From Rheinheimera sp. 1928-s (lineage in GTDB: Bacteria > Pseudomonadota > Gammaproteobacteria > Enterobacterales > Alteromonadaceae): 64,000 nt of DNA. Numbering within the stretch: position 1 is the first letter of the stretch; every line of letters starts with the position of its first letter. The notes beneath the pieces were generated by a model. It was given only the letters and a program-made list of their open reading frames with translations, did no database searches and was not told the origin of the DNA. Positions 59,273 to 62,817 of this stretch are shown in pieces. A program made the translations under genes and the position numbers. The stretch is from the NCBI RefSeq assembly GCF_029269265.1, contig NZ_JARIXP010000001.1:353568-417567 (forward strand). Reading direction: 5' to 3'.

Positions 59273-60274
59273 ATGATGAGTTCAAATACTTCCCTTTCAA
59301 AGCCTGTGATTATGGATCACCGTTTCTCCATTGCCCCTATGCTGGATTGGACTGACAGGCATTGTCGTTATTTCCATCGATTATTGTCTGAACATGCGGT
59401 GCTCTATACAGAGATGGTTACTACAGGCGCGATCATTTATGGTCAGGGCGATTATCTGGCTTTTAATGAAGAAGAGCATCCTGTTGTAGTGCAATTGGGT
59501 GGTTCTGATCCTAAAGATATGGCGCACAGCGCTAAGCTTTGTCAGGAACGGGGTTACGACGCTATCAATATTAATGTTGGCTGCCCATCGGACAGAGTGC
59601 AAAACGGTATGTTTGGCGCTTGCCTGATGTCAAAGCCTGAACTAGTGGCTGCTTGTATCCATGAAATGCGTTCTGTAGTAGATATTCCTGTCACAGTAAA
59701 AAGCCGCATTGGGATTGATGATCAGGATAGCTATCAGTTTTTAGTAGATTTTATCGGCACTATCGCTGAATCCGGTTGTAACCAGTTTATTGTGCATGCC
59801 CGTAAAGCCTGGTTAAGTGGCTTAAGCCCTAAAGAAAATCGCGAAATTCCACCCCTGGATTACGAACGAGTGTATCAGCTGAAAAAAGATTTCCCCCATT
59901 TAGATATCTCCATCAATGGTGGCGTGAAAACCCTGGCTGATTGTTTAACCCATTTACAGCATGTGGATGGTGTGATGGTGGGGCGTGAAGCCTACAGTAA
60001 CCCGTTGATGCTGGCGCAAATTGACGCTGCTATTTATAACAACCCACGCGCTGTACCAACACCACATCAGGTGGTGGAGCTGATGTTGCCTTATATTGAG
60101 CGCCAAATGGCACAGGGCGCACGCTTCTGGCATATAGCTCGACATATGCTCGGGTTGTTTCAGGGCGTACCTGGTGCCCGTTTATGGCGGCGGCATTTAA
60201 GTGAAATAGGCCACTTGCCGACCAGTGGTCCACAAGTCATGTTGGATGCGCTGAAAAAGGTGCCACAGCTTTAA
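59273..60274 (+). CDS. dusA: tRNA-dihydrouridine(20/20a) synthase DusA
   Basis: FMN-dependent reduction of uridine in the tRNA D loop. About 333 aa. [36 protein letters not shown] (catalytic Cys near GACLM), [13 protein letters not shown] and INGGVKTL are diagnostic of DusA. The start is set at the ATG pair 59273/59276; the ATG at 59312 is also possible, and the frame from 59195 overlaps the promoter. Confidence 0.95.
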
Positions 60275-60295
60275 CAGTGTGAGTATCAAGTTTTT

Positions 60296-60327
60296 AAAAA
60301 AGTGGTGAATTTCACCACTTTTTTTGT
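60296..60327 (+). terminator. Intrinsic terminator of dusA
   Basis: AAAGTGGTGAA pairs with TTTCACCACTTT and is followed by a T-run. Confidence 0.88.
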
Positions 60328-60413
60328 TTTTAACTCTTACATGTTTTTTTGATAAATAGGTCAAATTTATTTTAAATTATTATTTATCAGTAACTTAAAA
60401 ATTAATTTCAGTA

Positions 60414-60429
60414 TGGCACGTACCTTGAA
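60414..60429 (+). promoter_or_regulatory. Sigma-54-like promoter of the 88-aa gene
   Basis: TGGCAC, GTACC, TTGAA: one mismatch to TGGCAC-N5-TTGCA, GG spaced ten bases from G427. The -12 reads GA, not GC, comparable to the E. coli pspA promoter, whose -12 also departs from GC. AT-rich sequence lies upstream (a near IHF match TATCAG-N4-TTA starts near 60385). 42 bp before the ATG. Confidence 0.45.
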
Positions 60430-60470
60430 ATAGACATAGTGAACTTCACTACTCATTAAGGAGCACGACC

Positions 60471-60737
60471 ATGAAAACACTTGCTACGTTAGTCCTTGTT
60501 ACCGCTGCAGCTTTTGCTGCTACACCATCAGCGCAAGCCAATGAGCTGAGCTTACCTTCTGTTAATACACAAGCCATCAGTTCTTTTGCTGCTGAATTAA
60601 TAAATCAACAAATGGCTGAGTTAAAAGTTGTCATTCTGGAACAAAGCCAAAAAGCTTTGGCTGAACTGGAAACTAATTTAGTGACCAGCACTGAAACTGA
60701 AAAAGAAGTTGTGGTTACAGTAGCTAAGGTGGACTAA
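60471..60737 (+). CDS. Small exported protein of unknown function, 88 aa
   Basis: Not recognised. Signal peptide (residues 1-24: MKTLATLVLVTAAAFAAT then SAQA), leaving about 64 aa of mature protein: one amphipathic helix (ISSFAAELINQQMAELKVVI) followed by a Glu-rich second helix. AAGGAG precedes the ATG. The next, 41-aa gene starts 2 bases after its stop, so the two are coupled. Likely periplasmic. It may be sigma-54-driven (see 60414). Confidence 0.75.
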   Translation: MKTLATLVLVTAAAFAATPSAQANELSLPSVNTQAISSFAAELINQQMAELKVVILEQSQKALAELETNLVTSTETEKEVVVTVAKVD

Positions 60738-60739
60738 GG

Positions 60740-60865
60740 ATGCTGAGCTTAACATTAGGGTTGTTGGGGCTGTTTTTATTACCCGTCGTTAGTGTTGGCC
60801 TGGTGTCTGTGATCTGGCATTGGTTATTACCCCCCTTTGATATTCCTGCTTCAACCCGGTCTTAA
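60740..60865 (+). CDS. Putative 41-aa membrane peptide
   Basis: Begins MLSLTLGLLGLFLLPVV, one or two short membrane segments (about 2-28) and a polar tail ending PASTRS. The start is 2 bp after the stop of the 88-aa gene, AAGGTGG lies at a normal distance. Its last codons form the left arm of the terminator. Not recognised; too short for a family assignment. Confidence 0.55.
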   Translation: MLSLTLGLLGLFLLPVVSVGLVSVIWHWLLPPFDIPASTRS

Positions 60866-60887
60866 GTAGTACCGGGTTTTGTTTTTT
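60853..60887 (+). terminator. Intrinsic terminator after the 41-aa gene
   Basis: AACCCGGT pairs with ACCGGGTT around 10 bases and is followed by TTGTTTTTTT. Separates the two small-protein units. Confidence 0.85.
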
Positions 60888-61125
60888 TAAGTTCTTGCTC
60901 CGCTGTTCATCTACTGCTGCAAATCCCATTTCTCTTTATTCATACACCTCTTTGCTTTGCCCTTTTGAGCTACCCACTTAACCTGAAATTATGTTTTTTA
61001 AAATGGCTAAAAAGTGGTCTAAATTGCTATTTAATATTTTAAGTAAAACTCTGAGAATGATCTGTAATTAGTTTTTAAATCTAAAAATATCAATAAAATC
61101 AATTGTTTAAAATTTATTTATAAAT
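60888..61125. other. AT-rich upstream region of the small-peptide/PspC operon
   Basis: No gene with a ribosome site is visible over about 240 bp; sequence from 60985 is very AT-rich. Contains the IHF-like site at 61097. An activator binding site is expected here if the sigma-54 promoter is real, but none could be defined. Confidence 0.5.
61097..61109 (+). promoter_or_regulatory. IHF-like site
   Basis: AATCAA-TTGT-TTA is an exact match to WATCAA-N4-TTR. It lies 17 bp upstream of the -24 element, the usual place for DNA bending at sigma-54 promoters. Confidence 0.55.
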
Positions 61126-61141
61126 TGGCACAACAGCTGCA
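61126..61141 (+). promoter_or_regulatory. Sigma-54 promoter of the small-peptide/PspC operon
   Basis: TGGCAC, AACAG, CTGCA: one mismatch to TGGCAC-N5-TTGCA; GG (61127-61128) and GC (61139-61140) ten bases apart. Preceded by an IHF-like site in an AT-rich stretch. First coding gene starts 67 bp downstream. Confidence 0.75.
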
Positions 61142-61208
61142 ATGTATAGGTATCAACAGATGAACTGATGATGAATTAAACCACTAACTAAGATTGAGGA
61201 GAGTCAAA

Positions 61209-61283
61209 ATGGAAATAGCAGCACTGATGGTTGTATTAGCTTGGTTCGGCATTGTTGGCAGCTGGGCTGCAGACGAAGTCTAA
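61209..61283 (+). CDS. 24-aa membrane peptide, copy A
   Basis: Starts MEIAALMVVLAW, ends GSWAADEV: one short membrane segment of about 17 residues with an acidic C-terminal tail and two Trp. GAGGAG is 6 bases before the ATG. The protein is identical to copy B although codons differ at GCT/GCA, TTC/TTT, GTT/GTA and AGC/AGT, so selection has kept the protein. Function unknown; probably inner membrane. Confidence 0.8.
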   Translation: MEIAALMVVLAWFGIVGSWAADEV

Positions 61284-61292
61284 ATAACAAAA

Positions 61293-61310
61293 TGCTGATG
61301 AGTATCAGCA
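61293..61310 (+). other. Hairpin between the two 24-aa genes
   Basis: TGCTGAT pairs with ATCAGCA around GAGT. No T-run, so more likely an mRNA-processing or stability element than a terminator. Confidence 0.5.
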
Positions 61311-61348
61311 AAGGCACAAAAACATAAACAAAGGTGAGGAGAGTCAAA

Positions 61349-61423
61349 ATGGAAATAGCAGCACTGATGGTTGTATTAGCATGGTTTGGCATTGTAGGCA
61401 GTTGGGCTGCAGACGAAGTCTGA
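61349..61423 (+). CDS. 24-aa membrane peptide, copy B
   Basis: Same protein as copy A, different codons, its own GAGGAG ribosome site, stop TGA. Two copies could raise dose or allow a dimeric assembly with differing expression; this is inference. Confidence 0.8.
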   Translation: MEIAALMVVLAWFGIVGSWAADEV

Positions 61424-61451
61424 ACAGAAAGCGTTTAGGGAGGTACGGAGC

Positions 61452-61547
61452 ATGTCACTGATTATTATCAACATTGTCGTGGTCTGGGCTTTAGCTGGTT
61501 TGCTCTGGTTGTTAGACAGAGCGGTTTATAACAAGGTTGGAGAGTAA
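61452..61547 (+). CDS. 31-aa membrane peptide
   Basis: Starts MSLIIINIVVVWALAGLLW, a single membrane segment of about 20 residues, then LDRAVYNKVGE with charges on the likely cytoplasmic side. GGGAGG and CGGAG precede the ATG. The PspC gene starts 4 bp after its stop. Not recognised. Confidence 0.75.
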   Translation: MSLIIINIVVVWALAGLLWLLDRAVYNKVGE

Positions 61548-61551
61548 GCAT

Positions 61552-61761
61552 ATGAGCTTAGAAAAAGATAAAAGTGCCTGGTTTGTGAATAAGGCTAAAC
61601 GTAAAATTTCAGGTGTGTGTGCAGGTTTTGCCGCTTTTTATGAGCAGCCAATCTGGTTAGTCCGCACTGTAGTGGTATTGCTGGCGTTGTGTTTTCCGGT
61701 TGCTGTGGTAGTCGCTTATATCGCCGCTGCGTTAATACTGCCAGAACGTTGGGTGTACTGA
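61552..61761 (+). CDS. PspC-domain membrane protein, 69 aa
   Basis: Almost entirely a PspC domain: KRKISGVCAGFAAFYEQPIWLVRTV at 17-41, then a membrane segment VVLLALCFPVAVVVAYIAAALILP to the end. E. coli PspC is 119 aa, so this is a short form. PspC senses inner-membrane damage with PspB and PspA. The ATG at 61552 follows GGAGAG; a frame start five codons earlier overlaps the 31-aa gene. Last coding gene of the operon; no pspA, pspB or pspF adjacent. Confidence 0.85.
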   Translation: MSLEKDKSAWFVNKAKRKISGVCAGFAAFYEQPIWLVRTVVVLLALCFPVAVVVAYIAAALILPERWVY

Positions 61762-61828
61762 TATGAGTTGTACAAAACAGGCGGCCTGGCGGGCAGGTCG
61801 CCTGTAGAGATGGTAAGTTGCTATAAAA

Positions 61829-62713
61829 TTATATGTTCTTCCGTGCCGTTAAGCGCACCCATTCTTCTTTGACTGCTACCGGGTCAAACTCAAATTCTGC
61901 CGCATAGGCATCAATTACCGACTGCGCCTGACTTTCCAGAATACCGGACAGCGCCAGTAAGCCACCTGGTTTGACATAAGCACTGATAATGCCTGAAAGC
62001 TGAGCCAATGGGCCGGCCAGAATATTTGCCACTACTACATCGGCTTGTAATGACGCAGGTTGATCCTTTGGCAAATACAGCTCAATTTGTTGTTCTACGC
62101 CGTTACGGGTGGCGTTGGCGAGGCTGGATTCAATAGCTTGTGGATCAATATCGATTCCCACCACACGCTTAGCGCCCAGCTTTAATGCCGCAATACCTAA
62201 AATACCTGAGCCACAACCAAAATCGACCACTAAACTTTGCGACAATTCCTGTGCATCCAGCCATTCCATGCAAAGCGCTGTAGTTGGGTGAGTACCGGTA
62301 CCAAAAGCCAGGCCAGGGTCAAGCATCACGTTTACTGCCGTTGGATCCGGAATGTCGCGCCAGCTTGGGCAAACCCATAAACGGTTACCAAAGCGGATAG
62401 GGTGGAAGTTATCCATCCATTCTCTTTCCCAGTCTTTGTCTTCCAGTTGTTCCAGCTTGTACTGCACACCGTTTTTAAACATGGCGGCTTTTTCCAGCTG
62501 TCGAACCACTTTGTCCATGTTGTGTTCGGCGTCAAACAAACCCACCACCACAGTGTTTTCCCAATACAAGACTTCACCCGGCAGAGGTTCATAAATAGGG
62601 GTGTCTTTGGCGTCAACAAAACTGACAGCTTGCGCGCCCCAGCTCATCAGCATATCGCTGACCTGCTCGGCTTGTTTTTCAGTGCTGTTTACGCGTAATT
62701 GGATCCACGGCAT
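61829..62713 (-). CDS. prmA: Ribosomal protein L11 methyltransferase PrmA
   Basis: 294 aa. L11-binding N-terminal domain ([33 protein letters not shown]), SAM-binding domain with [15 protein letters not shown] and [18 protein letters not shown], and [10 protein letters not shown]. The frame opens five codons earlier; ATG 62713 gives the standard MPWIQL start. Downstream of accC, as in E. coli-like genomes; separated from it by a 57-bp palindrome. Confidence 0.97.
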
Positions 62714-62760: not shown

Positions 62761-62817
62761 AAAATGGGGTCAGATCACATTAATTGCCCGGCAATTAATG
62801 TGATCTGACCCCATTTT
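62761..62817 (-). terminator. Perfect 57-bp palindrome, probable accC terminator
   Basis: 28-bp arms from AAAATGGGGTCAG to CTGACCCCATTTT are perfectly complementary around a single C at 62789. On the minus strand it follows the accC stop by 6 bp and ends in a run of nine T, so it should be a very strong terminator. The GGGGTCAG core is of the type linked to REP-like elements. Confidence 0.85.

Follow-up and report, generated by a model that had tools for sequence, protein, structure and literature searches.

A probable satellite operon of the PspF regulon downstream of dusA

The DNA downstream of dusA in Rheinheimera sp. 1928-s carries an operon that is probably a satellite of the PspF regulon, located at the position that pspG takes after dusA in E. 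coli, and its PspF-induced micropeptides and mini-PspC protein would act as membrane effectors. The locus was examined within a window of 64,000 nucleotides, which is the whole stretch of DNA analysed. Its regulation and coding capacity are well supported at the sequence level; its biochemical role is one that we infer.

In the window the gene order is dnaB, alr, a zur-like gene, a choloylglycine-hydrolase-family gene, dusA, two sigma-54 units (P1 and P2) and, on the opposite strand, prmA. The dnaB and alr products score above their family cut-offs, and the zur-like product belongs to the Fur family and is closest to Zur, at 159.9 bits just below the cut-off of 167. The order in E. coli K-12 is zur-yjbL-yjbM-dusA-pspG-qorA-dnaB-alr, and comparison of the two orders indicates that the operon occupies the E. 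coli pspG position. In a passage of PMC9239133, pspG is given as the only known PspF target of E. coli outside the psp operon.

The P1 unit starts at a sigma-54 promoter, TGGCACGTACCTTGAA (60414–60429, plus strand), a pattern match that is present in the 12 genomes with the peptide array described below. It is followed on the same strand by an open reading frame for an 88-aa protein, which by eye appears to have a signal peptide and contains a long helix (60471–60737), and by the gene for a 41-aa hydrophobic peptide (60740–60865). The AlphaFold model of the 88-aa protein places the helix at residues 33–87, with low confidence (mean pLDDT 62.7). A terminator-like hairpin with a T-run (AACCCGGT/ACCGGGTT; 60853–60888, plus strand) overlaps the 3′ end of the 41-aa gene and closes the P1 unit. 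This hairpin was read from the sequence, since its loop of 10 exceeds the limit of the hairpin scan and it is therefore absent from the scan list; the number of terminator-like sites found in the region, two against 1.6 expected, is not above chance.

The P2 unit is the part of the locus that the preliminary description had covered, and four closely packed open reading frames of 24, 24, 31 and 69 aa are indeed present on the plus strand at 61209–61761, each preceded by a purine-rich stretch that is a candidate ribosome site. Their promoter, TGGCACAACAGCTGCA, is a sigma-54-type pattern match at 61126–61141 (plus strand). The first gene encodes a 24-aa hydrophobic micropeptide, MEIAALMVVLAWFGIVGSWAADEV (61209–61283), recognised from its reading frame, from the array alignment and from its substitution pattern. 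The second copy (61349–61423) encodes the identical peptide with synonymous differences; the two 90-nt copies that contain these genes lie 140 bp apart and are 94% identical. Between the 24-aa genes the hairpin scan returned a spacer hairpin, TGCTGAT-GAGT-ATCAGCA (61293–61310). A 31-aa hydrophobic micropeptide (61452–61547) and the 69-aa mini-PspC, which consists of the PspC domain alone (61552–61761), complete the unit. The mini-PspC start lies 4 nt past the 31-aa stop codon, so that coupled translation is possible. The products of the small open reading frames were assigned to the membrane from their hydrophobicity, judged by eye.

The absence of pspA and pspB from this operon, and the idea of a mini-Psp module built on it, had been put forward from the sequence of the unit. 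The absence is real for the operon, but it does not extend to the genome: on contig C20, pspF and the genes pspA-pspB-pspC run divergently, with a full-length pspC, and each of the four genes scores above an NCBIfam equivalog cut-off (for pspF, TIGR02974, 554.6 bits against 443.55). With a complete pspF/pspABC set elsewhere in the genome, the P2 operon is better described as a satellite of that system than as a self-contained one. The canonical psp locus, the second sigma-54 unit at 60414–60865 and the variable copy number of the tandem array had not formed part of the preliminary description.

Promoters and PspF-type activator sites

Matches to the −24/−12 pattern are by themselves not rare. 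Six sigma-54-like matches were found in the 64-kb window, where shuffled sequences gave a mean of 2.45 and reached six or more in 5 of 100 cases. A PspF-type site, however, lies upstream of two of these six only, those at 60414 (P1) and 61126 (P2), which bears out the promoter first proposed for the peptide genes. A PspF matrix was trained on pspA promoter sites from 25 genomes (this one and 24 relatives), which gave 10 distinct sites, together with the E. coli pspA site; the dusA locus was kept out of the training. The pspA loci of G022, G024, G028, G031 and G034 stayed outside the training set because no start was found at the expected place, and one odd site of the ten, that of G038, was omitted from the version of the matrix used for the window scores, the per-genome P2 sites and the dusA loci across the order.

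The best matrix scores 50–160 bp upstream of the promoters in the window were 20.2 for P1, at 104 bp, and 13.7 for P2, at 103 bp, whereas the other four sigma-54-like matches scored 1.7, −1.2, −1.3 and −2.5. The P1 site, AGTGGTGAATTTCACCACT (60301–60319, plus strand), is a palindrome except for its central base and has no mismatches to the PspF pattern; the P2 site, AGTGGTCTAAATTGCTATTT, lies at 61013–61032 (plus strand). For comparison, the PspF-type site of this genome's own pspA promoter is 102 bp upstream, E. coli pspG (outside the training set) scores 14.5 at 60 bp and E. coli pspA (part of the training set) scores 19.0 at 72 bp. These sites at matching spacing, the pspG position after dusA and the conserved synteny all speak for the link with the phage-shock response that had been suspected from the PspC domain and the promoter type.

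Across the 4.64-Mb genome, exact matches to the PspF pattern occur in two places only, the pspA promoter and P1. Up to two mismatches gave 15 matches, against four for the reversed control. Ten sites with two mismatches lie outside the pspA and dusA loci, and by script no sigma-54-like promoter is found within 40–200 bp on either side of them, so no further members of the regulon are claimed.

The P2 site is conserved at 102–104 bp upstream in 12 of 12 array genomes, with shuffle p values of 0.001–0.005 in each, although the genomes are related and the p values are not independent. It is weaker than the P1 site, and its centre deviates from the consensus and differs between species. In the eight genomes of the genus in which the array is absent, a site precedes the pspC promoter at p 0.001 in four (99–108 bp) and at p 0.03–0.04 in two; in the remaining two, G006 and G020, no PspF-type site was seen upstream of this promoter. 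Among the 20 genomes of the genus in which the locus could be read, 19 have a P1 site above the 95% shuffle level; the exception is G017, where it falls below the threshold. The P1 promoter itself deviates from the strict pattern of the script in G003, G009, G017 and G019, and can be seen by eye in G003, G017 and G019.

An IHF-like site had also been proposed ahead of P2. A strict consensus match does lie between the activator site and P2 (61097–61109, plus strand), but such a match precedes P2 in only one of the 12 array genomes, and IHF was dropped as a conserved element of the promoter.

Two palindromes around P1 may have additional roles. The P1 PspF-type site doubles as the stem of a terminator-like hairpin 3′ of dusA (60296–60324), and the shared palindrome may act both as terminator and as activator site. 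An extra PspF-type site just 3′ of P1 (60434–60453, minus strand; score 16.6, two mismatches to the pattern) scores 16.6–20.2 in 10 of the 12 array genomes and 11.9 in the remaining two; its possible roles are those of a roadblock, a second activator site or an mRNA hairpin.

Coding, copy number and spread of the micropeptides

Synteny in relatives, which had been named as a check, is conserved: the array with the 31-aa gene is present in 12 of 22 Rheinheimera genomes, and the rest of the locus in eight others. In those eight, a gene for an 87–97-aa protein and one for a 42–43-aa peptide are followed directly by that for PspC. The locus is unreadable in two genomes, as the contig stops soon after dusA in G011 and dusA itself is cut in G018. 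The 24-aa gene is found in two copies in six array genomes, three copies in five and four copies in one, with 30 intact copies in total. In the genome with four copies (G016), copy 2, at position 1159 of its stretch, carries TGA in place of its second Trp codon; it appears to be a decaying copy, and the rest of the array is intact.

The small open reading frames go beyond chance and, as judged from their substitution patterns, are conserved at the protein level. For the 24-aa gene pS/pN is 0.25/0.028 over the 30 copies and 0.18/0.020 when only first copies are taken (n = 12), and for the 31-aa gene it is 0.38/0.063 (12 copies), which corresponds to pN/pS of about 0.11 and 0.17 respectively. 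The values are 0.197/0.021 for the 41-aa gene (12 genomes), 0.38/0.037 for the last 63 codons of pspC and 0.38/0.100 for the 88-aa gene. When the 31-aa gene and the first 24-aa copies are read in a shifted frame, the synonymous excess is gone. Within the 24-aa gene, synonymous change is unevenly distributed (pS 0.13 in codons 1–12 against 0.37 in codons 13–24); the low value in the first half may reflect gene conversion or a constraint on the RNA.

The 24- and 31-aa peptides are perhaps related. W12, W19 and D22 are in register between them, and shuffle tests of the likeness gave p 0.005 and 0.02 in a fixed register and 0.06 and 0.10 with a free offset. A profile comparison of the two peptides found no match, so that kinship rests on the three shared residues and this weak shuffle test. 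Neither peptide matched a known sequence family, the PspB family TIGR02976 included. The C-terminus of the 31-aa peptide, NKVGE, resembles NKIGE of the organism's own PspB by eye; the residues vary between species, and the likeness was dropped.

The spacer hairpin was aligned in 13 of 19 spacers, in which 85.7% of cells are paired and two double changes occur, each reached by 9 of 500 shuffles. Some relatives have a weak form of it or none, which leaves a role in mRNA stability as a guess.

A search for the 24-aa array in 394 genomes of the order, at least three of them from the genus, returned this genome and one weak 12-residue match. An exact pattern scan over the genome contigs of 84,980 species returned nine stretches, seven from Rheinheimera, R. 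soli and R. tangshanensis among them, and two from Gammaproteobacteria MAGs. In the searches made there is no convincing array match outside the genus.

The mini-PspC protein and its relatives

The short PspC protein that had been recognised by inspection matches the PspC domain PF04024 with an E-value of 7.7e-14 (51.7 bits, cut-off 25). Against the full-length PspC equivalog TIGR02978 it reaches 48 bits, under the cut-off of 104. The protein ends with the domain at residue 69, and thus has no C-terminal zipper, and it carries C at the position of E. coli G48. By eye, the full-length PspC of the same genome keeps both the C-terminal tail and the glycine. AlphaFold models mini-PspC with low confidence (mean pLDDT 63.2).

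According to passages in PMC3068692, the leucine zipper of E. coli PspC (residues 77–98) and G48 are required for PspA binding, a fragment of residues 40–68 retains PspG binding, and the G48A variant loses PspG and PspA binding and keeps PspB binding. The same passages describe contact between PspB and PspC through their membrane regions and self-association of PspG. Lacking both zipper and G48, mini-PspC would not be expected to signal to PspA/PspF. As G48A in E. coli also abolishes PspG binding, the missing glycine is no argument for a PspG-like contact.

A PspC-domain tree was built from 56 distinct rows and 71 columns; the columns are few, and several branches are long. In this tree the dusA-linked PspCs from genomes with the array come out as a single supported group (10 distinct rows, 100/97) within the dusA-linked PspCs of the genus, and the canonical PspCs cluster with lower support (92/77). 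The dusA-linked PspC of G036 falls beside the canonical PspCs, so that the dusA-linked label needs two changes on the tree. The simplest history is that the array was gained once, in one Rheinheimera lineage.

The genome encodes a third PspC-domain protein, a stand-alone product of 65 aa on contig C1 (L006:3654-3851, at about 516 kb). With its likely orthologues it forms a supported tree group of its own (99/98), and by eye no evident sigma-54 element is present in the upstream stretch inspected.

Contents of the site after dusA in other genomes

No PspG (PF09583/TIGR02975) turned up in any of the 22 genomes from the genus; one of the 31 genomes searched overall has it, and no protein of the operon that was scanned matched it. 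Across the order, 34 dusA loci were read (30 from 56 genomes with dusA, and four examined earlier). After dusA, five carry pspG, all above the family cut-off; two (G061 and G051) carry pspA with a short pspC, both pspA genes being above cut-off; nine, the window included, carry a short pspC and no pspA; and three (G022, G042 and G073) have other small proteins together with a sigma-54-like promoter. The other 15 have none of these features. The site 3′ of dusA thus looks like a recurrent home of PspF-controlled small envelope proteins.

The loci of G061 and G051 (L187 and L190) resemble that of the window in their place after dusA and in their short PspC, of 75 and 77 aa respectively. In G061 a 37-aa gene stands just before the short pspC, as a small gene does here, whereas none is listed between pspA and pspC in G051. 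Both differ from the present locus in that pspA comes first, and the 88-aa protein, the extra promoter and the peptide array are features of the latter.

Proposed role and alternative explanations

In the working model, inner-membrane stress would free PspF from PspA, and PspF would bind about 103 bp upstream of both sigma-54 promoters, so that P1 and P2 would be switched on together with pspABC. P1 would then supply the 88-aa helical protein, which is probably exported, and the 41-aa membrane peptide; P2 would supply the array of 24-aa single-pass peptides, the perhaps related 31-aa peptide and mini-PspC. With its two to four copies of the 24-aa gene, each transcript would yield more of the peptide. 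Mini-PspC and the micropeptides would insert in the membrane and form an embedded effector complex, much as PspG joins PspC, and this complex may protect the membrane or the proton-motive force. A bolder version, which we hold tentatively and consider somewhat doubtful, is that the 24- and 31-aa peptides are new Psp effectors: dose-amplified, single-pass peptides that would replace PspG and PspB by way of a PspA-blind PspC, in a separate complex whose amount is set by copy number.

Some type I toxin genes occur duplicated, and the array peptides, being short, hydrophobic and present in tandem copies, might be toxins of a type I toxin–antitoxin-like system, with membrane depolarisation or slower growth under stress as their effect. 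The T-rich minus-strand sequence after the spacer hairpin would be a possible end of an antisense RNA; however, a consensus scan of 60200–61900 found no minus-strand sigma-70-like promoter, and the T-run is interrupted in several relatives. Moreover, the peptide genes and pspC belong to one operon, which has a PspF-type site upstream, and eight genomes of the genus retain the rest of the locus where the array is missing. Toxin activity is, in our judgement, quite improbable. Equally little weight is given to the 24-aa reading frames being leaders, the translation of which, with the spacer hairpins, would set expression of the 31-aa gene and pspC while the peptides themselves are inactive. The repetition of frame-and-hairpin units upstream of pspC would fit such a scheme, as would the two double changes in the hairpin and the low synonymous change in codons 1–12, which suggests RNA-level constraint or gene conversion, but the C-terminal half of the 24-aa peptide is strongly conserved (pN 0.032), and G007 and G008 keep the peptides though by eye their hairpin is weak or absent.

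A further alternative concerns the activator rather than the products. P2 might be sigma-54-dependent but answer to another enhancer-binding protein, its PspF-like site being an inherited remnant, and the clearly weaker score of this site relative to P1, with a centre that varies between species, would agree with this. Its spacing, however, is held at 102–104 bp in all 12 array genomes, its score of 13.7 is near the 14.5 of E. coli pspG, and the adjoining P1 has an exact PspF-type site, which makes a different activator very unlikely.

Comparison with known systems

In Salmonella and Yersinia, as in E. coli, pspG is found downstream of dusA and is PspF- and sigma-54-dependent. The satellite operon is like E. 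coli pspG in its place after dusA, its sigma-54 promoter with a PspF-type site, its small products predicted for the inner membrane and its location outside the main psp operon. It is unlike pspG in that PspG is missing from the genus, in having at least six genes spread over two sigma-54 units, and in its activator spacing (103–104 bp, against 60 bp at E. coli pspG). With the canonical pspF-pspABC system it shares a PspC domain, PspF-type control and a small hydrophobic gene directly before pspC, where the canonical operon has pspB. It differs in having neither PspA nor PspB and a PspC that is missing its C-terminal part, and the canonical operon is present in the same genome as well.

Stress-induced small membrane proteins of E. 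coli include YohP, YoaK and MgtS. The micropeptides are comparable to these in being hydrophobic, under about 35 aa and linked to stress, but they are set apart by the tandem array and the PspF-type control, and the 24- and 31-aa peptides matched no family. For YohP, see PMC12719787. A reduced pspACG operon in Aeromonas is mentioned in PMC3068692, so reduced Psp sets are already known. The Psp system itself is likewise known, and the new component is the micropeptide array. No literature on the locus was found among open-licence papers by title and the start of the abstract, and a term search of two Psp surveys (PMC9239133 and PMC11237479) returned neither dusA nor Alteromonad-.

If the satellite reading is correct, it would extend the PspF regulon past pspABC and pspG. 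Relatives that swap pspG, pspA, a short pspC and micropeptides after one gene would offer a natural experiment on interchangeable small membrane parts, and a passage of PMC9239133 describes the role of PspG in the Psp response as not fully understood. In an environmental bacterium, the array also provides a tandem set of micropeptide genes with a copy number that is both countable and open to change.

A dispersed repeat beside the locus

A perfect 28-nt inverted repeat (62761–62817) separates prmA from the gene that follows, a biotin carboxylase-like one by eye. Its half-site has 51 matches in the genome with up to two mismatches (27 forward and 24 reverse), and none in both controls. The half-sites occur mostly in palindromic pairs, which points to a dispersed palindromic repeat.
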